Source of the DNA: Rhodospirillales bacterium
GTDB taxonomy: Bacteria; Pseudomonadota; Alphaproteobacteria; ATCC43930; CGMCC-115725
Length of the DNA: 64,000 bases
NCBI GenBank assembly: GCA_028288725.1
Contig: JAQGIC010000037.1
Location: forward strand, 1-64,000
Reading direction: 5' to 3'
A program made the position numbers and the translations under genes. Within the stretch, counting starts at the first letter, position 1; every line of letters begins with the position of its first letter. Shown here one piece after another: positions 2,382 through 29,324 of this stretch. Under the pieces are notes generated by a model. It did not search any database. It was not told where the DNA came from and saw only the letters and a list, made by a program, of their open reading frames with translations.

Positions 2382-4067
2382 TTAGACGAGCGTCTTCGAT
2401 TGCATCTTGCGATAAAGCGTCGAGGGATTGACGCCGAGGGCCGCGGCGGCGCGCGAGATATTGCCGCCGGCGGCGGCGATCGCGGCCTTGATCGTCTCGC
2501 TCTCGGCCAGTGCCAGCGGCTTCAACTCGCGTACCCGCCCGCTCGGCTTTTCCAGGGGGGGGAACTGTTCGCGCTTGCGATAGAGCGTCGATGGACTGAT
2601 CTCAAGCCTTGCCGCCGCCTGCAGCACGTTGCCGCCGCACTGTTCCAGCGCCAGCTCGATCAGGTCCCGCTCCAGCTCGGACAGCGAGAACGAGGCCTGC
2701 GCAGTCGCCTCGGCGGGCGCTTGCCCGTTCGCGGCCGATATCGCCGGCATCGGGTGGAGGCTGGGTGCCGCGGGCGCCGGGGCCGGGGCGGGGCGGACCT
2801 GCGACAGCGGCGCCGGCAGCATGAAGGGCACGACGGTCTCGCCGTCGTTCAGCAAGACGATCTGGCGCACGACGTTCTGCAACTGGCGCACGTTGCCGGG
2901 CCAGGCGTAGTGCACCAGGATGCTCTCGGTCTCCGGCGAGAAGCGCTGGAACGCCCGGCCTTCCTCGCGGGAATATTCGGCCAGGAACCGGCGGGCGATC
3001 AGCAGCACGTCGTCCTCGCGCTCGCGGATCGGCGGCAGCAGCAGCGGCATGACGTAGAGCCGGTAGTACAGATCCTCGCGGAAGCGGCCGGCCTCGACCT
3101 CCTTCAGCGGATCGCGGTTGGTCGCCGAGATGAAACGAACATCGACCTTCTGGGTCTGCGTGCCGCCGACCTTCTGAAAGGTGCCGGTCTGGATGAAGCG
3201 CAGCAGCTTCGCCTGCAGCCCGACATCCATCTCGCAGATTTCATCGAAGAACAGCGTGCCGCCATCGGCGCGGCTGCCGGCGCCCTCGCGGTCGGCCACG
3301 GCGCCGGTGAAGGCGCCCTTCACATGGCCGAAGACCTCGCTCTCGATCAGGTCTTTGGGGAAGGCGGCACAATTCAAGGCGATGAACGGCTTGTCCTTGC
3401 GCGGGCTCCGCAGGTGCACCGCCTCGGCGGCGAGTTCCTTGCCCGTGCCGCTTTCGCCGGTGATGAACACCGGCGCCTTGGACTGGGCCGCGATGTCGAC
3501 GATGCGATAGACGCCGCGCATGGCGAGCGAATTGCCGACGAAGCCGCAGAACTGGTCGCTATCGCCCGGGGTGTCGAACGTATCGACGATGCGGCGCAGG
3601 TTCATCCGCTCCAGCGCATTGTCGAGCGTGACGAACAGACGCTCCGGCGCGAACGGCTTAACCAGGAAATCCGACGCCCCCTCTCGCATCGCCTCGACCG
3701 CGATGTTGATCGAGCCATGGGCGGTGATGACGACGACCGCGGTGTTCAACCGGCGCTGGGTGATCCATTTCAGGATCTCCATGCCCGACATGTCCGGCAG
3801 TTCGATATCGAGCAGGACGGCGGCATAGCTGGTCTCGGCCAGCGCCGCGAGTGCGGCGGTGCCGGTCTCGCAATGCAGGGTATCGTACGGACCGCGCCGT
3901 AGATATTCGAGATAGACCCGGGCGATCGACGGATTGTCTTCGACCAGGAGCAGCGGATGCCGGCCGGTCAATATCTTCTCCCGAACGCCCTGTGCAGCGT
4001 CTGTTCTACCATGTTCAGTCGTAGCCGATGACACAGACCATGCTGTCGTCCGCCGTTCTTCCGCCAT
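2382..4067 (-). CDS. Sigma54-dependent response regulator (REC-AAA+ with GAFTGA, two C-terminal Fis-type HTHs), SypG-like
   Basis: REC 'PLLLVEDNPSIARVY', 'GESGTGKELAAEAVH' Walker A, 'GHVKGAFTGAVADREG', two 'ISPSTLYRK/VNPSTLYRK' HTH motifs. Start may be as far in as 3986. Confidence 0.93.
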   Translation of the reverse strand: MAEERRTTAWSVSSATTEHGRTDAAQGVREKILTGRHPLLLVEDNPSIARVYLEYLRRGPYDTLHCETGTAALAALAETSYAAVLLDIELPDMSGMEILKWITQRRLNTAVVVITAHGSINIAVEAMREGASDFLVKPFAPERLFVTLDNALERMNLRRIVDTFDTPGDSDQFCGFVGNSLAMRGVYRIVDIAAQSKAPVFITGESGTGKELAAEAVHLRSPRKDKPFIALNCAAFPKDLIESEVFGHVKGAFTGAVADREGAGSRADGGTLFFDEICEMDVGLQAKLLRFIQTGTFQKVGGTQTQKVDVRFISATNRDPLKEVEAGRFREDLYYRLYVMPLLLPPIREREDDVLLIARRFLAEYSREEGRAFQRFSPETESILVHYAWPGNVRQLQNVVRQIVLLNDGETVVPFMLPAPLSQVRPAPAPAPAAPSLHPMPAISAANGQAPAEATAQASFSLSELERDLIELALEQCGGNVLQAAARLEISPSTLYRKREQFPPLEKPSGRVRELKPLALAESETIKAAIAAAGGNISRAAAALGVNPSTLYRKMQSKTLV

Positions 4068-5586
4068 TTCGCATCAGGTGGGCACGCAGCAGACCGTCCG
4101 CCATGACCGAAGGCGAGCGGGCCGCGAGATCGATCAGGTCGTTCTTGAGCGCCTCGACCGCGGCCGCGGCCAGATCCGGATCGGGCGATTCGACGAAGCC
4201 GTCGGTCACCAGCACGATCCGGTCGCCCGGCTTCAGCACGACGGTCTTCGCCTCGTAGGTCTGGCCGGGAACCAGCCCGATCAGCCCGCCCTCGACCGGC
4301 ACTTCCTCGACACCGTCGCGGGTTACCAGCAGCGGATAGGGTTGTCCGGCGTTGGAGACGACGACTGCGCCGTCGGCACCCAGCCAGCAGCCGAGCGCCG
4401 TCAGCGTGGCGCCTTCCAGAAGGCCTTCCTCGCACAGCAGGTCCGACAGTTTGGCGATGAAACTTCCGGGGCCGACCTCGTGGCCCATGCCCAGCGCCGC
4501 GCCCTTGACGAAGCCCAGGTTGGCCATGGCGAGCGGCCAGGCGCCCAACCCGTGGCCCATCGCATCGCACATCAGCAGCTGGAAGCCGTCGGGCGTATGG
4601 CGATGCCAGATCAGGTCGCCGCCGGCGACGTTGATGTTGATCGAGGCGCCCGCCGAGATGCGGCGGGCGGCCAATGTATAATTCCCGACCTGTTCCGGCA
4701 GCGTCTGGGACGGAAAGCGCGTCGTGTTCGCGACGATCTCGGTCTGGCGGAGCGCGCGCATCTGGCTCTGTCGCTTCAACAGCCGCTCCAGCACCTGGAG
4801 CAGGCGCTTCTTGTCGAGCGGCTTGTACAGGAGATCGTCGATGCCGGCGTCGTTGGCCGCCGCCGAGGCGCCGGGGCTCCGGTCGCTGGTCAGGAACAGG
4901 AACGGCACCAGGCCCAGCTCGGGTTCACGCGATAGCCGGTCCCGGAACGACAGGCCGTCGTCGTCGGGCATATGGATGTCGGAAATGATGACGTCGGGGC
5001 GCTGCAGCTTCGCCTCCAGTTCGGCCTCGGCCGCGGTCGCGCAGGCGCACACGGAATAGCTGCCCTTCAGGTAGGCTTCGATCGTCATGCGTTGGACCGG
5101 GTCGTCATCGACCACGAGAATGCGCGGAACGGCGGTTGCAGTCGGTTGCACGCAGCGCACCATGAAACGGTTGACCTCGCCCTGGCCGGAAGAGCGCCAA
5201 GTCCGCGGAACATAGAGATGTTGTGGGAATCGGGAAGCCACGATGTAGAGCCCGCGGCCGGATTCCTGCAATGGGTCGGGACGTCGGCCGGTCCGATCGC
5301 GGAATGACGACGCTTCGCGCAGCAAGGGCCGGCCGTCGTCGGCGACGACCAGGGTCCATTCGGTATCGTGCCGCTTCAGCTCGGTCCGCAGCCGGGTCGC
5401 GCCGTCGGCATGCTCGGCGACATTGATGCCGATCTCCGCCAGAGCCACGCCCAGGTCCTCGCCCATTTCGCGGCCCAGCGGCAAGTGCGCCACGAAGGCG
5501 TTGAACGCACGGCGCAGATCGCGCACGCCGGCCAGGGTCGGCACGGCCTCGCCTGTCCACAACACCTCCTCGGCATCCATCTTCAC
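4015..5586 (-). CDS. RsbW-like HATPase - REC - SpoIIE/PP2C phosphatase protein, SypE-like
   Basis: N-terminal 'EIGINVAEHA..DDGRPL..ESGRGLYIV' HATPase motifs, central REC 'RILVVDDDPVQR..DVIISDIHMPDDDG', C-terminal 'VAGGDLIWH..MCDAMGHGLGA..LVTDGFVE'. Confidence 0.9.
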   Translation of the reverse strand: MKMDAEEVLWTGEAVPTLAGVRDLRRAFNAFVAHLPLGREMGEDLGVALAEIGINVAEHADGATRLRTELKRHDTEWTLVVADDGRPLLREASSFRDRTGRRPDPLQESGRGLYIVASRFPQHLYVPRTWRSSGQGEVNRFMVRCVQPTATAVPRILVVDDDPVQRMTIEAYLKGSYSVCACATAAEAELEAKLQRPDVIISDIHMPDDDGLSFRDRLSREPELGLVPFLFLTSDRSPGASAAANDAGIDDLLYKPLDKKRLLQVLERLLKRQSQMRALRQTEIVANTTRFPSQTLPEQVGNYTLAARRISAGASININVAGGDLIWHRHTPDGFQLLMCDAMGHGLGAWPLAMANLGFVKGAALGMGHEVGPGSFIAKLSDLLCEEGLLEGATLTALGCWLGADGAVVVSNAGQPYPLLVTRDGVEEVPVEGGLIGLVPGQTYEAKTVVLKPGDRIVLVTDGFVESPDPDLAAAAVEALKNDLIDLAARSPSVMADGLLRAHLMRNGGRTADDSMVCVIGYD

Positions 5587-10323: not shown

Positions 10324-10830
10324 TTAACGGACAATCGCTTGGTCTCCAAAATCGAGCCGCGCTGTGTTCGGCGGCTGACCGACGTCATAGCGCGTCTGGG
10401 TCACATGCAACGTCGCAGGCAAATGTTGCGCCACAAAGCGCGCGTGACGGTTGGCGGCCAGGGCGGCCGCCATCGGCGACGGATCGTCGGACGGCCCGAC
10501 GATCAACACGGCATCCCGCTGCGTGCCGGCGATCGCCGTCAGTTGCTGAAGATCGTTGTTCGGGATTGACAGGGAGCCGTCCTGATCGACGACCCTGAGC
10601 GTGATCGGGTCGGGCGTCGATTTCTCAGGCTTGCCGCGGGCCTTTGCCAGCATCTCCTCGACCGTCATCGGCTTCTGCGGGTTCGCCTTCGCCGCTTCCT
10701 GCTGCAGCAGCAGCCGGTCGCTGGCGGGGATCAGCTGCGCCGGTGCCTGACTGGCGCAGCCGGTCAATACCCCGGCCGACAGCAGGATGCCGAGACAGGA
10801 CCGGGCGTGTTTCGGCGAACGGCGCTGCAT
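10324..10830 (-). CDS. EPS-locus lipoprotein, possibly degenerate OmpA-like
   Basis: Lipobox 'LLSAGVLTGCAS'; 'ALAANRHARFVAQHLPATLHVTQTRYD' resembles part of an OmpA-like domain. ORF can start at 10884. Confidence 0.65.
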   Translation of the reverse strand: MQRRSPKHARSCLGILLSAGVLTGCASQAPAQLIPASDRLLLQQEAAKANPQKPMTVEEMLAKARGKPEKSTPDPITLRVVDQDGSLSIPNNDLQQLTAIAGTQRDAVLIVGPSDDPSPMAAALAANRHARFVAQHLPATLHVTQTRYDVGQPPNTARLDFGDQAIVR

Positions 10831-21520: not shown

Positions 21521-21535
21521 TGGTACGTTGTTTGC
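21521..21535 (+). promoter_or_regulatory. Predicted sigma54 (-24/-12) promoter upstream of the STAS gene
   Basis: TGGTAC-GTTGT-TTGC versus consensus TGGCAC-N5-TTGC: one mismatch, correct GG-N10-GC spacing, 46 bp before the ATG. Confidence 0.75.
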
Positions 21536-21581: not shown

Positions 21582-21899
21582 ATGCAAGCAACCTTCATCG
21601 AACCCAACACGGTGGTTCTCACCTTGGAAGGGGAATTCGATGCGCTTGCGGTCGTTGATGCCCGTCCGATGCTCGAAGGCATCGTCGCCAACAGCGATTC
21701 CGATGTCGTCATGGATTTTTCGGGGGTCGATTTTCTCGACTCCTCCGGTATCGGCTGTCTCGTGTTCGTATTCAAACGCCTGTACGCGGCCAAGCGGACC
21801 CTGACGTTGCAGGGCCTGCGCGATCAGCCTCAGCGCCTGATCCAATCGCTCAGGATCGACAAGGCCATCCCGACGCGACCCGTCGGCGCGGCAGCCTGA
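21582..21899 (+). CDS. STAS-domain anti-sigma-factor-antagonist-like protein (SypA-like)
   Basis: 'MQATFIEPNTVVLTLEGEFDALAV..VVMDFSGVDFLDSSGIGCLVFVFKRL' with candidate phosphorylatable serine in DSSG. Confidence 0.9.
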   Translation: MQATFIEPNTVVLTLEGEFDALAVVDARPMLEGIVANSDSDVVMDFSGVDFLDSSGIGCLVFVFKRLYAAKRTLTLQGLRDQPQRLIQSLRIDKAIPTRPVGAAA

Positions 21900-21901
21900 G
21901 A

Positions 21902-22291
21902 TTGCTCGTGCGGGTGTTTTTTCGCCCGACCCTCGGGGTCGTGGCGCTGCTTTCCCTGGCCGGCTGCACCGAGGATTGGCCGAGCTACGGCCATGGCGGC
22001 ATCGCGGAGCTCCGGCCGATTCCGCTCAAGCCCGAAGCGGCCGCGCTCAATCTTCAATTGAGCTGCTTCAAAGGGCTGATCGATCGGTATAAGGCTTCGG
22101 ATGCGGCGGCCTATTCCAACGCGACCTTGCCGCGCGCCGAGACTCTGAGCGCCCGGATCTCCCGCGAGATCGCGGGCGGGCTGCTGCCGGATGCACGCTA
22201 CGACATGGAAACCCTCAAGGTGATGGTGGTCGATCTGACGGACGCCGCCGAAATGCCCACCGACAAGGTCGATCAATGCGCCGCTTCCTGA
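21902..22291 (+). CDS. Putative EPS-locus lipoprotein
   Basis: Lipobox 'LLSLAGCTED'; between STAS gene and export gene, overlapping the latter. Start TTG 21902 or GTG 21908. Confidence 0.7.
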   Translation: MLVRVFFRPTLGVVALLSLAGCTEDWPSYGHGGIAELRPIPLKPEAAALNLQLSCFKGLIDRYKASDAAAYSNATLPRAETLSARISREIAGGLLPDARYDMETLKVMVVDLTDAAEMPTDKVDQCAAS

Positions 22292-24579
22292 TCGGCCGTC
22301 CGCTGCGGACCCTTTTGGCTCTGCTGCTCGTCGTCCTGGGGCTGGCGGGCGCGTCGCAGGCCTGGGCGCAACAGCCGGCGGACGGCGGCGTGCCGCCGTT
22401 GCAGGCTCCGCCCGGCGGCAACGGCAATCAGTACCAAAATCCGAGCGCCAATTCTCAGCAGGCTCAGCGGGCGCCGGTCACGCCCGGCGCGCTGCAGAGT
22501 TCGGCGGAAGCTTCGACGCCGGATACGCAGGTCCGGATCGGCGACGTGCTGTTCCTGTCGCTGCCGGGCGAGGACACATTCAACAAGACCTTCCAGGTCG
22601 ACCGGCGCGGCAACCTGCTGCTGCCCGAGGTCGGTCTGGTCCAGGTCGCGGGCCTGACCATCGCCCAGGCCCAGGTCAAGATCCATGATCTGCTGGTCCG
22701 CGCGTTCCGCGATGTCTCGCGCTTCGATCTGGCGCTCAAGGAACGACGGCTGCTGGTGACCGTGCTGGGCTTCGCCCGCAATCCCGGCCCGGTCGAACTG
22801 TCCGGCGACGCCACGGTGCAGATGGCGATCAACATGGCCGGCGGCCTGGCCCAGGGCGCCCAGCTAGACCGGATGCAGGTCCGCCGCGGCAAGGAAGTGC
22901 AGATCTTCGACTATAAGAAATATCTCGATACCGGCGATCCGTCGGTGCTGCCGAAGCTGGAGCCGCTCGACGAGATCTTCGTGCCCGCCTCGCCGCTGAC
23001 CGGCAACGTCCAGGTCGACTTCGACCCGCATACGCTCGCCGCGGCCGGCGACGCCGGCGACGACCGGACGTCGATCAAGGTGTTCGGCGAAGTCAACCAA
23101 ACCGGTTCGTTCGCCTTCAAACCCGAAGCGACGATCGTCGAATACATCATGCGGGCCGGCGGCGTGACCCGCTTCGCCACGACCGACGGCATCCGCGTCG
23201 TGACCAAAGGCAAGCCGCAGACCTTCAGCCTGAAGGACTATCTGGATTCGGGCGACAAGAAGCTGCTGCCCGAGATCGGGCCGGGCACGACGATTTTCGT
23301 GCCGAAGGAACTTGAAGAGATCAAGGGCGGCGCCAGCACCATCTATGTGATGGGCGAGGTGGCGAAGCCGGGCGCGTTCGAAATCAAGCTCGGCGTCGGC
23401 TTCCTCGACGTGCTGGCCAATGCCGGCGGCCCGACCCGCTTCGCCAACACCAACGAGATCCGCATCCTGAAGGCCAATGGCGGGGTCGAGAATTTCGATC
23501 TGCTGGCCTATACCGAAACCAAGAGCAAGCGGGTGGCCCCGCCGAAGCTCGGGCCGGGCGATACGATCTTCGTGCCGGAGAAGCAGCAGGAAGAGGGCGG
23601 CAGCTGGCTGAAGAATTCGCCCGACAAGGTCGTGCGCATCATCGGCGCCATCAACAGCCCCGGTCGCTACGAATGGAACGATGAGATGACCATCCTGGAT
23701 CTCATCGCCGAGGCGGGCGGACCGGCAGATCGCGCCAATACCTCGCATATCGAGATCCTGCCCGGATCCAAGGAAGTGGGCGCAAATACCGCGGTGCAGA
23801 TTTTCGACCTGGCGTCGCTCGTCGAAAAGGGCGGCCGGCTCGATCAGTTGCCGAAGCTGAAGCCGGGCTGGACGATCAGCATTCCGACGCTGCCGCAGAG
23901 CAATGGCAACGACAACCGCTCGTCCTGGCTGCAGCAGCCGGCCGAGACCTCGATCTATGTGCTGGGCGCGCTCCGCAATCCGGGCCGCTATGCCTTCAGC
24001 AAGAACATGCATTTCCTCGATATCCTGAGCGCCGCCGATGGTCCGGCGCCCTCGGCCGATCTGGAAAACATCCGCATCACCCATCGCCGGAACGGCAATG
24101 GCAAGCCCAGCATCACCAAGCTCGACCTGACCGCTTATTTCTCCAGCGGCGACGACCGGCTGCTGCCGGACGTTCAGCCGGGCGACGTCATTTATTTCCC
24201 GGACAAAAGTGCCGACTGGCTGGCGCTAGGCAAGGAACAGACGGTCCGGGTCCTGGGCTCGGTCAATAAACCCGGCCGCTACAAGTTCAACGATACGATG
24301 ACCCTGCTCGATCTGCTGGCCGAAGCGGGCGGCCCGACCGCCGATGCGTATCAGGAAAAGATCGTGGTGGTGAACTTCGCCCGCGGCCAGGATCAGGCCG
24401 AGACGTTCAATCTGGTGCATTTCGCTAAGACCGGAAATTTCCAGGAGCTGCCCGTGTTGCGCGCGGGCGACACGGTCTATGTGCCGAACGCGACGCAGAG
24501 CGATTGGCAACAATTCATAAGTGGCGTGCGCGATACCGTGTCCGTGTTGTCGATCTTCGCCCTCCTCGGAAAGCTCTGA
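22276..24579 (+). CDS. Polysaccharide export protein with repeated SLBB domains (Wza/SypC-like)
   Basis: Signal peptide; '[47 protein letters not shown]'; repeated 'GxxxxPGxxxF..[12 protein letters not shown]..GDTIFVP' units. Confidence 0.93.
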
Positions 24580-24580
24580 C

Positions 24581-25294
24581 GTGACGCCGCTGCCGATCCA
24601 TTACGCCGAAGTGCAGCGCATGTATGCCGCGACCGTCGCGCGCGGCCTGCGGCTGCTGGCGGTCACCGCGGCTGAGGCGGGCGAGGGTGTATCGACCATC
24701 GCCTATGCGCTGGCCCGGCGCGCGGCTGCGGCCGGCGAGCGGACGCTGCTGGTCGAATTCAACATGTTCCGCCCGTCGCTGGCAGCCCGGCTCGGCATTC
24801 CCGAAAAGGCCGCCTGGCAGTGCGACGCGGAATCCTCCTTCGCCGCGATGACGGAATTTCCCTCGATCCGGCTTTCGCTGCTGCCGGCCCCGCGGGGGCT
24901 GTCCGGCCTTGAGCTGATCCGCTTCTCCGACAATCGGGCGATGGGCGATCTGTTCGCGGCCTGGCGCGCGCGGTTCGACGTGATCATCTGCGACTGCTCG
25001 GCGGTCAACCGCACGAACAGGGGCAATATCGCGGCCTCGTCGGTCTGCGAGGCCGGGGCGGCGGCGATCCTGACCGTGCTCGCCGGCCAGACGCCGGCCC
25101 GGCGGGTGACCGAGGCGGTGACCAGCCTGGCGGAGTCCGGCATCACCGTGACCGGGACCATCCTCAACAAGCGTTTCGATCCGTCGCTCTATCAGGAACT
25201 CATGCGCGAAGCGAAGCGGATCGAGCCGTTCTGGCCGAACATCGCCAAACGCATCCGCCGCTTCACCGAGACCAACCGCAAGGTGCTGAGCTAG
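24581..25294 (+). CDS. CpsD/BY-kinase-like P-loop protein with degenerate Walker A
   Basis: '[60 protein letters not shown]'; GTG start. Confidence 0.82.
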
Positions 25295-25331: not shown

Positions 25332-25658
25332 ATGATGCAGCTGACGATCCACGATGCGCTCGCGGCGCTGGGCGACAGGGGCGAGACCTATCTGAAGCTG
25401 TTCGCCCAGCCCGCCCTGGACATCGCCCTCTACAAGCCAGACCGGACCGATCCGCAAACGCCGCATCGGCGCGACGAGATCTATGTGATCGCGACCGGAT
25501 CCGGAAGCTTCGTTCAAGCGGACGAAACCCGTCCGTTCGGTCCGGGCGATCTTCTGTTCGTGCCCAAGGGCGTGCCGCACCGGTTCGAAAACTTCACCGC
25601 GGATTTTTCGACCTGGGTGATCTTCTTCGGCGAGGTGCCGGCCGAGCCGCTACCATAA
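25332..25658 (+). CDS. Small cupin-domain protein
   Basis: 'HRRDEIYVIATGSGSFVQADETRPFGPGDLLFVPKGVPHRFENF'. Confidence 0.85.
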   Translation: MMQLTIHDALAALGDRGETYLKLFAQPALDIALYKPDRTDPQTPHRRDEIYVIATGSGSFVQADETRPFGPGDLLFVPKGVPHRFENFTADFSTWVIFFGEVPAEPLP

Positions 25659-26144
25659 GGCCGGCCACCGGGGCTTGGCACTGCAATCCAGCGGGTTGGC
25701 CACCGCCAGGAACGGCTGCGGCGAAGCCACCGAAAGACCGACGGCCCGGCCGATCGCCCGAAGGGTCTCGAATGCCAGGAAGCGGGCGAGCGGGGGTGAT
25801 TTGCTCTCGCCGCCGCCATAGACGAAGCTCGCCTTATAGAGGCCCGGCGGCGTGAACTGGCGCAGCAGATCGTCGCCCTCGGCGCTGCCCGACAGCACGA
25901 CCACCATCAGCGGCCGGGCACAGGCCGGCGGCTGAAAGCGCAGCGCGCGCACGACGCCGCCGGTGACCAGATCGACCGACGCCAGGGGCGTGAACCCCTG
26001 TTCCCCCAACGTCTTGGTGATCTCGGATTCGGCGATATCGCGGCCGTTACCCAGGTGGGTGTTGTAGCGGACGATCTTGGCCGTCAGGCTCACCCCGAGC
26101 AACACCAGCAGCACGAGCGCCAGCAGCATGCGCCGCAGAACCAT
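25650..26144 (-). CDS. Exosortase-associated membrane-anchored protein of unknown function
   Basis: Single N-terminal TM; start overlaps the end of the exosortase-like ORF. Confidence 0.65.
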   Translation of the reverse strand: MVLRRMLLALVLLVLLGVSLTAKIVRYNTHLGNGRDIAESEITKTLGEQGFTPLASVDLVTGGVVRALRFQPPACARPLMVVVLSGSAEGDDLLRQFTPPGLYKASFVYGGGESKSPPLARFLAFETLRAIGRAVGLSVASPQPFLAVANPLDCSAKPRWPALW

Positions 26145-26976
26145 TCGAAAGTCCCCAATGTGTCACGACCAGGGTGGCGATCAGGATCGCAAGCTCGGTC
26201 GTGGTCTGTCCGATCGGTCCATGCGCCAGCTCGTAGTCGGCGGGACCGAGCCCCATGATGGTGAGGCGCGTCAGGTTGATGAGGATGACCGCGAGTGCGA
26301 CCAGCAGGGCCGCCGCCAGATCCCGTCGCTCGAAATGCGGGCGCAGCCAGCGGGTCAGGACCAGCCAGGTCAAGAGCGCCAGCGAGATATTGGCGAAGGA
26401 TGAGCAACTCATCAGCACGGCCAGCACCATGCCCTGGTCGGTTTCGATCAGGTTGCCGGTGACGACCGAAGAATGGCCCAGCAGGCCCAGCGTCGTGCGG
26501 GCCAGCACCGCATCGATATGCAGCAGCCAGGGCGACAGCATCTTCATGGCGGTCGCGACCCACAGTTCGCGTGCGCCGGCGGCGATGAAGATGAGGACGC
26601 CGGCGCGATAGTGGATGTCGCGCGGCCGGCGCAGGATTTCCCAGATGCCGAGCGCCACGACCGCCATCGCTGAAAAGCCGCTGCTCGGCACCGTCACGCC
26701 GACGGCATAGAGCAACAGCGCCAGCACGTCCCAGCGGTCGATCGGCCGTTCGGCCGTGGCCCGCGAGCCCAGCACCACCGCGCCCAGCAAAGCCAGATAG
26801 ACCGGCCAGCCGCTGCCCAATCCGCCGCTGAGCGCGCCGACGACGCCCCATTCGTCGATGGCCTCGATTGCCGGCCGCACCAGCGCGTTGGCGATGCCGA
26901 TCGCCATCAGAGCCACCATCAACCGGGGGCGGCCGAATGCCGGGAAGGATGGGGTGAAGGCGAGGCTGCGAGCCAT
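26047..26976 (-). CDS. Exosortase/archaeosortase family protein
   Basis: Polytopic; candidate catalytic Cys 'VLMSCSSFANISLALLTW', Arg 'LINLTRLTIMGL', His 'YELAHGPIGQTT' in the order expected for exosortases. Confidence 0.8.
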   Translation of the reverse strand: MARSLAFTPSFPAFGRPRLMVALMAIGIANALVRPAIEAIDEWGVVGALSGGLGSGWPVYLALLGAVVLGSRATAERPIDRWDVLALLLYAVGVTVPSSGFSAMAVVALGIWEILRRPRDIHYRAGVLIFIAAGARELWVATAMKMLSPWLLHIDAVLARTTLGLLGHSSVVTGNLIETDQGMVLAVLMSCSSFANISLALLTWLVLTRWLRPHFERRDLAAALLVALAVILINLTRLTIMGLGPADYELAHGPIGQTTTELAILIATLVVTHWGLSNGSAAHAAGARAAGVARGEPDGQDRPLQHPPG

Positions 26977-27026
26977 GGGATTTCCGACCCTGCGGGCGGC
27001 GTAATGCCGCCGAGATCCTCTGTCTA

Positions 27027-27041
27027 GCATAGTCGGTGCCA
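27027..27041 (-). promoter_or_regulatory. Predicted sigma54 (-24/-12) promoter upstream of the exosortase gene
   Basis: Minus strand TGGCAC-CGACT-ATGC: perfect -24 and GC of -12 at exact spacing, 50 bp before the ATG at 26976. Confidence 0.7.
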
Positions 27042-27170
27042 GGCCGCCCCATCGGATGCCCTTGACGCGGAATGTGTGACAGTTCGAAATGGACGAAGCT
27101 TCATCTTCGGGCAAGCAATCCCGGTCAATGCTTCCTATATGAAGACTGGTGGTATCGAGGAGAATCGATC

Positions 27171-27299
27171 ATGGGCTTCTTGGCGATCTTGATCAGCGGT
27201 ATCGGTCGGGCACTTGGCTGGCTTACGCCGGAACCGGCGGGCGAGCTTAAGCCGATTCCGATCCCGGTGCGCGATCAGCGGCCGCGCCGCCGCCGCTGA
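27171..27299 (+). CDS. Small 42-aa protein, hydrophobic N-terminus and Pro/Arg-rich C-terminus
   Basis: MGFLAILISGIGRALGWLTPEPAGELKPIPIPVRDQRPRRRR after 'gaggag'; fills the space between exosortase and asmA-like genes. Confidence 0.45.
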   Translation: MGFLAILISGIGRALGWLTPEPAGELKPIPIPVRDQRPRRRR

Positions 27300-29324
27300 T
27301 CAGTGGTGGGCCGCCGGCGCGTTTTTGCGTGTCGGCACAGCATTTTTGGTGACCGTCGGTTTGCCGCTGACCGGCTTCGTTGGCGTCTTGGCGCCGGCCC
27401 CCACGTCCTGAAGCAGCGACTTGCAGTCGCTGTCCTCGCCCAGCCCCAGTTGAATCGTCGGAATCAGCGCGCCCAGCGGCGTCAGCAGCACGCCCAGTAC
27501 GGCGGCAGCGCCGCCCCGTTCGGCCAGAGCCGTCGGATCCGGCGCGATGCCCGGGCTCTTCAACGTCCCCTTGATATCGATCGGCGCCGGGATCGCGCCG
27601 ATGCTGAAGTGCTTCGGATCTGTCGTCAGCTGGTAATCGACCTGTTCCTGCGCCAGATCGATATGGCCCTTGCCGATCACGTTCGCCTCGGTCGTATCGA
27701 CCAGGAACAGCCGGCTCTGCAGATCGCCCTTGGCGAGGCCGGCATCGAAGATCATGCAGCGCACCGGCGCGCGGTTCGGCAAACCCAGCAGCGACAGCAG
27801 CGAATTGCCGAAATCGAGCCCGGCCAGATTGACCAGCAGCGCGCTGATGTCGCCGCCGGTCATGAACAGCTTCACGTCGCCATTGCCCTGGCCCAGCATC
27901 GCCGCCAGCGAATTGCCGGTCGTGTCGATCTTGATCTGCCCGCCGATCGTGCCGGCGCCCTCGAAAACGCCGGTCGATTTCATCAGCCGGCCGACATCGA
28001 CCTTGTGGAAATCCGCGTCGCCGACAAGATGGACCAGCGGTCCCTGGGCATCGAGCGTCAGGTTCAGCGCGATCTGGCCGGTACCGACGGCGAAACTCAA
28101 CGGGTGCAGACGGATTTGGCCGTTCTCGACCGACAGGTCGGCCGACAGATTGTCGATCGGCGTCGACTGGCTTTCGATCCGCTCGCCGCGATATTTCACC
28201 TCGATATCGGCCGAGCGCAGCTTCGGCAGATTGATCGGCGTGTCGGGCAGTAGCTTCGGACTGGCCTCGGCCTGCTTGCGTTCGGCCTGGTGCGTATCGT
28301 TCTTTGCGTCGGCCTTGCCCGGCGTGGCGCCGATGAAACCGGCGAGATCGGCCATCACCAGCTTGCGCGAGGTCAGATCGCCGGTGACCAGCGGCAGGTC
28401 GCCCTGGCGGATCTCGACGCCGATATCGCCATTCAAATCGCTGGCGCCGACGGTGCCGGCGAACTGGCGGAACAGGATCTTGGCGGCGCTGTAATCGAGC
28501 TTGCCGGTCAGGTGATAGGCGGGGGTCGGCGCCAAGGGGATGCCGGTCAGCGAATAGAGATCGGCCAGATCGCGGCCCCTCAGATCGAGCGTCACGTTGG
28601 CGCCGGCGAATTCCATCGGCCGTTCGACCGTGCCCTTCAGCGCCACATGGGTGCCGCCGTTCGACGCGGTCAGGTCGATCGGATAGGGCTTGGCCGGATC
28701 GCGTAGCGACAGGAGCGCGCCGCCGATGAACTTGCCGTCGACGGGCTGGTTGGCATAAGTGCCCTTGGCCTCGATCACGAGCGCCGCTTCGTCGCCCTTC
28801 GCCGGCTGGCGGGTCTCGACGTTCAGCGCGAAATCGGCCTGGGGCTTGCCTGCGACCACATGAATTTTACCGGCCGTGATGATCAGCGAGCCGATCTGGG
28901 GCGCCGGTTTGTCGGATTTCGGTGCGTTCGGATCGCCGAACTGCCAGTTGGCGGTACCGGACGGTGCCTGTGCCAGTGCGAAATTCGGGCGCTCGATCGC
29001 GATCTCCGGGATCAGGATGGGTCCGTGGAACAGGCTGCCGATATCGACCCGGACCGACAGGCGATCGATCGTGCCCATCGTCTTGTCGCCAGGGAAATTC
29101 TCGGGATTGGGGATGGTCACGCTGTCGAACACCAGCAGCGGCTGGCGGGCGAGGCGCACATCGAAATGCCCGATGGCGATCGGGCGGCCGAGAGCCGACG
29201 AGGCCTGCCGCTGGGCGAGGGGTCGCAGCCAGTTCCAGTCCCAGAAGAGAACCAGGATCACGATGATCAAGAGGGGAGTACCGAGCCCGATGGCCCAAAG
29301 CCGGAAGCGTCGCCTCGATGCCAT
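27300..29324 (-). CDS. AsmA family protein
   Basis: N-terminal TM then 'ASSALGRPIAIGHFDVRLARQPLLVFDSVTIPNPENFPG'; C-terminal AsmA-like repeats. Confidence 0.88.
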   Translation of the reverse strand: MASRRRFRLWAIGLGTPLLIIVILVLFWDWNWLRPLAQRQASSALGRPIAIGHFDVRLARQPLLVFDSVTIPNPENFPGDKTMGTIDRLSVRVDIGSLFHGPILIPEIAIERPNFALAQAPSGTANWQFGDPNAPKSDKPAPQIGSLIITAGKIHVVAGKPQADFALNVETRQPAKGDEAALVIEAKGTYANQPVDGKFIGGALLSLRDPAKPYPIDLTASNGGTHVALKGTVERPMEFAGANVTLDLRGRDLADLYSLTGIPLAPTPAYHLTGKLDYSAAKILFRQFAGTVGASDLNGDIGVEIRQGDLPLVTGDLTSRKLVMADLAGFIGATPGKADAKNDTHQAERKQAEASPKLLPDTPINLPKLRSADIEVKYRGERIESQSTPIDNLSADLSVENGQIRLHPLSFAVGTGQIALNLTLDAQGPLVHLVGDADFHKVDVGRLMKSTGVFEGAGTIGGQIKIDTTGNSLAAMLGQGNGDVKLFMTGGDISALLVNLAGLDFGNSLLSLLGLPNRAPVRCMIFDAGLAKGDLQSRLFLVDTTEANVIGKGHIDLAQEQVDYQLTTDPKHFSIGAIPAPIDIKGTLKSPGIAPDPTALAERGGAAAVLGVLLTPLGALIPTIQLGLGEDSDCKSLLQDVGAGAKTPTKPVSGKPTVTKNAVPTRKNAPAAHH

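Follow-up and report, generated by a model that had tools for sequence, protein, structure and literature searches.

Introduction

Exosortases are bacterial enzymes that presumably cleave proteins and attach them to the cell surface. The canonical exosortase, EpsH/XrtA, is a multi-spanning membrane protein with an active cysteine and the motifs N-x-x-R and H-x-x-x-G, is encoded in exopolysaccharide (EPS) loci, and is accompanied by EpsI, whose gene sits beside that of EpsH and may be fused to it, and by PEP-CTERM substrates, whose genes follow sigma54-type promoters (PMC1569441). The cyanoexosortases CrtA, CrtB and CrtC likewise occur in polysaccharide loci, with a small associated gene directly downstream (PMC12188702). 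In Aquincola tertiaricarbonis, pepA encodes an RpoN-dependent exosortase-type cargo of an EPS/floc system and lies behind the sigma54 elements TGGCAC/CTGCTT (PMC9850573).

Here, we describe a gene pair in a 64,000-nucleotide stretch of alphaproteobacterial DNA (the window) that, judged from its sequence, is best explained as a member of an alphaproteobacterial exosortase subfamily that has yet to be named, together with a dedicated periplasmic helper. With the EpsH/XrtA system it shares the multi-spanning architecture, the Cys, N-x-x-R and H-x-x-x-G motifs, the EPS locus, a partner gene that is downstream or fused, and sigma54-type promoters before candidate substrate genes. Unlike EpsH/XrtA, the new family forms a separate clade and has C-S-S rather than C-x-G, its companion has no significant match to the EpsI region, its tail is of the form P-x-P..GxGL instead of PEP, its putative substrates are few and tiny, and the candidate activator encoded in the window falls below the PrsR cut-off. 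The cyanoexosortases resemble it in the small gene directly downstream and the polysaccharide locus, and two members of the new family match the CrtC model weakly, but the homologues at two loci (L002 and L003) score 16-18 bits against cut-offs of 225-300 bits, the family is alphaproteobacterial, and the tail is different. The parallel with Aquincola pepA lies in an exosortase-type substrate gene placed behind sigma54 elements; the difference is that PepA is a classic PEP-CTERM protein with PrsK/PrsR.

Results

The initial annotation had described an exosortase-like gene pair with Cys, Arg and His motifs in the appropriate order. Both open reading frames are present on the reverse strand, each with an ATG start: a putative exosortase-superfamily membrane protein of 309 aa at 26047..26976 (-), recognized from the frame and its motifs, and a companion at 25650..26144 (-), overlapping it by 98 bp. 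The segments MSCSSFAN, INLTRL and AHGPIG follow one another as described, placing the motifs at C191, N234-x-x-R237 and H252-x-x-x-G256. An alternative start for the exosortase, TTG at 27114, would put the promoter within the gene, so we favor the ATG at 26976, which suits both the promoter and the homologues. The C-terminus is about 32 aa longer than the end of the relatives, running into the first codons of the companion. An AF2 model (mean pLDDT 89.3, with lower confidence in this extension) contains many helices (residues 16-50, 57-71, 81-95, 99-115, a long one at 121-165, 193-211, 217-241 and 254-277), from which we judge the highly hydrophobic protein to have about eight transmembrane (TM) helices. 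Fold searches against the PDB returned nothing at E <= 0.001 for either the exosortase or the companion.

The NCBIfam exosortase models, by which the initial annotation had proposed to confirm the family, did not do so: no curated model passed, and only TIGR04178 (17.7 bits, cut-off 23) and ArtE, the best specific model (17.2 versus 95 bits), gave matches, both below cut-off. The equivalog and exception cut-offs of the named subfamilies (XrtA, XrtX, CrtA-C and others) were not reached, members of the new family matching these models weakly, while TIGR04178 matched 7 of 14 family members, with a best E of 2.4e-5. PF09721 gave no EpsH match to the window protein or anywhere in this genome, in which no canonical EpsH was found with that model, and Pfam otherwise returned nothing relevant. 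Membership in the exosortase superfamily is instead supported by profile-profile comparison. Aligned by HHalign against canonical EpsH domains of the same class, the family profile reached 95.1% (E 3.4e-8, 135 columns), with C191, N234/R237 and H252 in register with the EpsH catalytic positions; both N-x-x-R and H-x-x-x-G have been described in EpsH (PMC1569441). This homology to EpsH upholds the original identification. Across 14 homologues with 16-30% identity to the window protein, N175, G182, C191, N234, R237, H252 and G256 are the only invariant positions. The active-cysteine motif C-x-G of EpsH reads C-S-S in the window protein, its glycine replaced by serine, at a position that varies in nearly all relatives, with CAG only at L030. 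In an unrooted tree with long branches, 31 proteins of the new family split from 29 EpsH domains with a support of 100/100.

Homologues occur in at least about a dozen of 385 Alphaproteobacteria genomes, the counts being lower bounds because the batch searches scored few candidates per genome; the contig scan for homologues used a four-row alignment. The hosts include two genomes of the same family as the source organism, Bradyrhizobium, Nitrobacter, Microvirga, Siculibacillus and Pseudaminobacter, as well as plasmids of Rhizobium and Microvirga. In Rhizobium sp. WL3, both homologues are annotated "hypothetical protein" and lie inside a polysaccharide/EPS locus. Canonical EpsH was found in at least 52 of the 385 genomes, and, among the matches listed, it occurs together with the new family only in genomes G249 and G363. 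One further genome of the genus was searched (G001); it is among those with canonical EpsH and has no detected member of the new family, suggesting that one sorting system was replaced by another.

The companion (164 aa) is predicted to consist of an N-terminal TM helix and a small periplasmic alpha/beta domain. A homologue adjoins the exosortase in 13 loci, and a companion profile recovered the partner in most of the untrained loci tested, with none in L045 or on the short contig L060. In three Microvirga species, exosortase and companion form a single open reading frame (L050:2328-3716, L053:6760-8148 and L280:5851-7299). Members of the exosortase clade are nearly always accompanied by this small, predicted periplasmic companion. 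No Pfam or NCBIfam model matched the companion, including DUF3485/TIGR02914 for EpsI, a partner that likewise sits beside its exosortase or is fused to it. Identity with EpsI is unsupported, as HHalign against the EpsI region gave 1.2% and no significant match.

The window also carries an EPS export operon. Its first gene (21582..21899, +) encodes a STAS-domain anti-sigma-antagonist-like protein (Pfam STAS) with synteny at L020, L022, L023 and L025. The other genes encode an outer-membrane polysaccharide export protein (22276..24579, +) with Poly_export and six SLBB stretches, for which the best NCBIfam model is TIGR03027 (XrtA/PEP-CTERM system export protein), and a CpsD/EpsG-like tyrosine-autokinase P-loop protein (24521..25294, +; NCBIfam matches below cut-off). 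In six distant genomes (L020, L022, L023, L024, L025 and L030), the exosortase lies among homologues of STAS, SLBB export, CpsD, Wzz, Wzy, flippase, activator or glycosyltransferase genes, the synteny at L030 being one glycosyltransferase only, and this recurrent setting supports the EPS link that had been proposed. The window also encodes a sigma54 activator with a receiver, an AAA domain and two Fis-type HTH stretches (2382..4067, -; Pfam), which scores 351.5 bits against the PrsR model TIGR02915 (cut-off 502.6) and has homologues in two exosortase loci, L024 and L025; it is a candidate activator of the regulon considered below. The segment 4015..5586 (-) encodes a protein with HATPase_c_2, receiver and SpoIIE phosphatase domains (Pfam; synteny in L025), possibly the partner of the STAS protein. 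Together, the 4015-5586 and 21582-21899 products look like a partner-switching control of EPS, and related genes are present in L025.

At many homologous loci, the gene adjacent to the exosortase encodes a tiny secreted protein composed of a signal peptide (judged by simple rules), a short linker of low complexity and a three-part tail with the consensus G-[AV]-P-[GA]-P-[IVL]-x-G-[AV]-G-L-[PS], followed by a TM helix and an Arg run. Small proteins with such P-x-P tails number 17 in 183 kb within 2.5 kb of exosortases, six of these being Bradyrhizobium cases that represent one lineage. By comparison, the more distant flanks (428 kb) hold 3, and about 1.9 Mb of this genome hold 10; the unbiased tail scan spanned 1.99 Mb of its 5.54 Mb. 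Two tailed proteins adjoin the exosortase in Microvirga ossetica, which was outside the tail training set. No nearby tail protein was found in L020, L023, L026-L028, several Bradyrhizobium loci and two Rhizobium loci, and no NCBIfam sorting-domain model passed for the source proteins of the tail profile. Full-motif tails, scored with a profile that included own-genome tails, occur in the untrained exosortase-positive genomes G134, G363, G033 and G005; this amounts to 4 of 10 untrained positives versus 0-1 of 51 negatives (Fisher p 0.0004-0.002), a post hoc count under a definition of the full motif that was fixed after the matches had been seen. Without G363, which has EpsH, the same comparison gives 3/9 versus 1/51 (p about 0.009, hand-worked). 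The strongest match in a negative genome, G062, is a VPEIDAGAGL tail beside a PF09721 match and belongs to another exosortase system, which we take to be of the VPEID-CTERM/exosortase E type. Its VPEIDAGAGL, TM helix and RRRR resemble the [AV]PGPIAGAGL, TM helix and RRR of the new family, but it has PEI instead of P-x-P, and its exosortase is matched by PF09721, whereas that of the window is not.

The initial annotation had recognized no PEP-CTERM-type substrate in the window, and we agree that the window holds no such protein. It had also proposed a genome scan for PEP-CTERM-like tails, which was negative for the classic form, with TIGR02595 reaching at best 14.1 bits (cut-off 16) in the genome, and yielded two P-x-P-tailed candidates with the tail profile: a protein of 85 aa at C100:85487-85744 (-), MMKSVNSHCEGRLRRPISLGLKAVCLAICLASAAPAALAKNDHGDCSGNCEAEPAPAPTMGGGLLGLVILGGGAVILWRRVRHKA, and one of 65 aa at C97:16182-16376 (+), MNFNAFCKAAALTLAVSAIASPAFAAVSPAPAPVAGASLLGLGVIVAGALALRRRNRDKTAAAKH. 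When a profile of eight neighbor tails was run against all contigs, before own tails were included, the C100 protein was the top match (E 0.003) and the C97 protein the fourth (E 0.74). The profile searches without and with the own tails covered all contigs and scored 150 out of 269 candidates in the one and 121 out of 247 in the other. The C97 protein was chosen from this list because, in contrast to the second and third matches, it is small, has a signal peptide and ends directly in the tail. Both candidates sit on contigs other than that of the exosortase. With cleavage sites placed by eye, the peptides predicted to remain after both cuts have about 19 (C100) and 8 (C97) residues. The apparent substrates of the exosortase are thus tiny secreted proteins with a new kind of C-terminal tag, and the presence of such sorting-signal-like proteins in the genome further supports the exosortase identification.

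Several other tailed proteins were encountered. The C100 tail passes the cut-off of the MYXO-CTERM model TIGR03901 (25.9 versus 20 bits) in an alphaproteobacterial host; this is likely a cross-match, and automatic annotation could be led astray by it. The PepA model gave an E of 0.21 with the C97 protein. At L221 (contig C56 of G363, a genome that also carries canonical EpsH), four tail-profile matches are clustered in open frames of 210-237 aa, bigger than the tiny substrates; the tail that was read is APAPVAGGGLA...RRR. Directly 3' of the pair, L030:8734-9900 and L024:10267-10932 encode related larger secreted proteins that look DUF4114-like by eye, one of them with the tail TAPAPPLEAAAVALLAVAAYVGRRQR. 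A search of this genome for DUF4114, considered as a candidate substrate from L030, gave no match, and its positive control likewise gave no signal.

The initial annotation had also placed a sigma54 site before the exosortase, and the sequence TGGCACCGACTATGC (27027..27041, -), with the GG of a -24 and the GC of a -12 element, indeed ends 50 bp upstream of the ATG. A second sigma54-like site, TGGTACGTTGTTTGC (21521..21535, +), is followed after 46 bp by ATG 21582, where STAS likely starts; the listed STAS start, TTG 21528, would overlap its -12 element. By itself, TGGCACCGACTATGC is not significant, as one 17-mer match at <=1 mismatch was found in the window with 0.69 expected. The pattern TGGYACN5WTGC occurs exactly twice in the 64 kb, at 21521(+) and 27041(-), with 0.25 expected, and both occurrences stand 46-50 bp before a plausible start codon. 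A -24/-12 score of at least 13.5 is reached by 0.275% of random 230-bp stretches (P 0.00275), and the scores are 13.5 for both the exosortase (at 50 bp) and the EPS operon (at 46 bp), 14.0 for the C97 gene (at 70 bp) and 13.5 for the C100 gene (at 38 bp). The first two sites were chosen in the initial annotation, while the C97 and C100 genes were found by their tails, blind to promoters; the high-scoring site 38-70 bp upstream of each constitutes an independent test that strengthens the sigma54 idea.

In a genome scan for promoters of the same motif, also suggested previously, TGGCACN5WTGCW had 10 matches versus 2 for the reversed pattern, and the looser YGGCACGN5TGC had 74 versus 89 in the control. 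Because the looser motif is unenriched genome-wide, the sigma54 case depends on the position of the sites. One TGGCACN5WTGCW match, of the ...ATGCT form, lies 52 bp before a PII (glnB/glnK-like) gene, a classic sigma54 target, and rpoN is encoded in this genome. The initial annotation had suggested that EPS export and protein sorting would come under one activator; no common enhancer motif emerged upstream of the four promoters, where the best shared 16-mers were no better than shuffles. The sites are not conserved before most exosortase homologues, so sigma54 coupling would be lineage-specific. A weaker sigma54-like site, TGGCGCAACATTTGC (10419-10433, -), lies 30 bp before a Wzz-like gene (score 13.0, background P 0.007).

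Discussion

Taking together the homology, the catalytic motif, the conservation and fusion of the pair, the adjacency of the tails and the promoter-like sites observed in the sequences, we consider it probable that the locus represents a novel type of exosortase system that is coupled to EPS export, handles very short substrates and is served by sigma54-like promoters. A very small pre-protein would be exported by Sec and anchored in the inner membrane by its C-terminal tag (P-A/G-P-x-x-G-x-G-L/x, TM helix and Arg run), leaving P-x-P outside. The exosortase would then cleave near P-x-P via Cys191, with Arg237 and His252, and probably transfer the short peptide to an EPS-linked or envelope-linked acceptor, with the companion assisting in the periplasm. 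Since exosortase, candidate substrates and EPS operon each have a sigma54-like promoter, they are probably turned on jointly, and this co-activation may be RpoN-dependent. More tentatively, and with somewhat more doubt than conviction, we suggest that this exosortase subfamily, with one or few very short cargo peptides (low-complexity stretches, rich in Gly/His/Asn/Pro, that span about 8-60 residues from the signal peptide to the tag), could be a device for decorating EPS with peptides, under a joint sigma54 regulon here; its cargo would be exported and attached with exopolysaccharide, rather than being large adhesins.

It is also conceivable, if rather unlikely, that the link between exosortase and substrates is right but that the genes are driven by sigma70, the TGGCAC...TGC matches arising by chance in GC-rich DNA with no joint regulon of EPS and sorting. 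Nearly one match with <=1 mismatch is expected by chance per window, and neither the relatives nor a shared enhancer lend the sites support; against this, four linked genes, two of them chosen without sight of their promoters, each fall in the top ~0.3% of 230-bp stretches, and the ...ATGCT form recurs before the PII gene.

We regard it as unlikely that the exosortase is real but the two P-A-P-A-P-tailed proteins are not its substrates, being ordinary C-terminally anchored proteins or targets of a rhomboid-like or myxosortase-like protease, with coincidental sigma54 sites. The MYXO-CTERM score of the C100 tail and the location of the tailed proteins on other contigs would fit this explanation, as would the canonical EpsH of the exosortase-positive genomes G249 and G363, which may own the tails there. 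Yet the tail profile drew only on genes neighboring homologous exosortases; tails with the full motif turn up in genomes that have the exosortase, as against no more than one in the 51 negatives; MYXO-CTERM is defined by a Cys that is missing from the C97 tail; and both genes have sigma54-like sites where expected.

A degenerate exosortase-fold protein with another membrane role in EPS (e.g., as an assembly or export helper) and no protein sorting would agree with scores below all curated cut-offs, the change of C-x-G to C-S-S and the absence of a match to a solved fold, but is improbable given the tagged small proteins beside the exosortase in many loci and the catalytic residues, Asn and Gly pair invariant in 14 proteins, which are hard to explain without catalysis.

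The family adds an exosortase clade that is missing from the curated models tried and whose hosts are Alphaproteobacteria of soil and plants, Bradyrhizobium, Microvirga and Rhizobium among them. It offers a candidate sorting signal that can be tested and a very small candidate substrate, and it ties EPS export to sorting through a candidate sigma54 regulon. With only 65 residues and a short mature peptide, such a substrate would suit mass-spectrometric identification of the acceptor to which exosortases attach their cargo.

Finally, a 42-aa open reading frame at 27172-27300 (+), divergent to the exosortase, encodes MGFLAILISGIGRALGWLTPEPAGELKPIPIPVRDQRPRRRR; with a hydrophobic start, a Pro-rich middle and an Arg end, an order of parts unlike that of a sorting tail, its product is possibly a small membrane protein.
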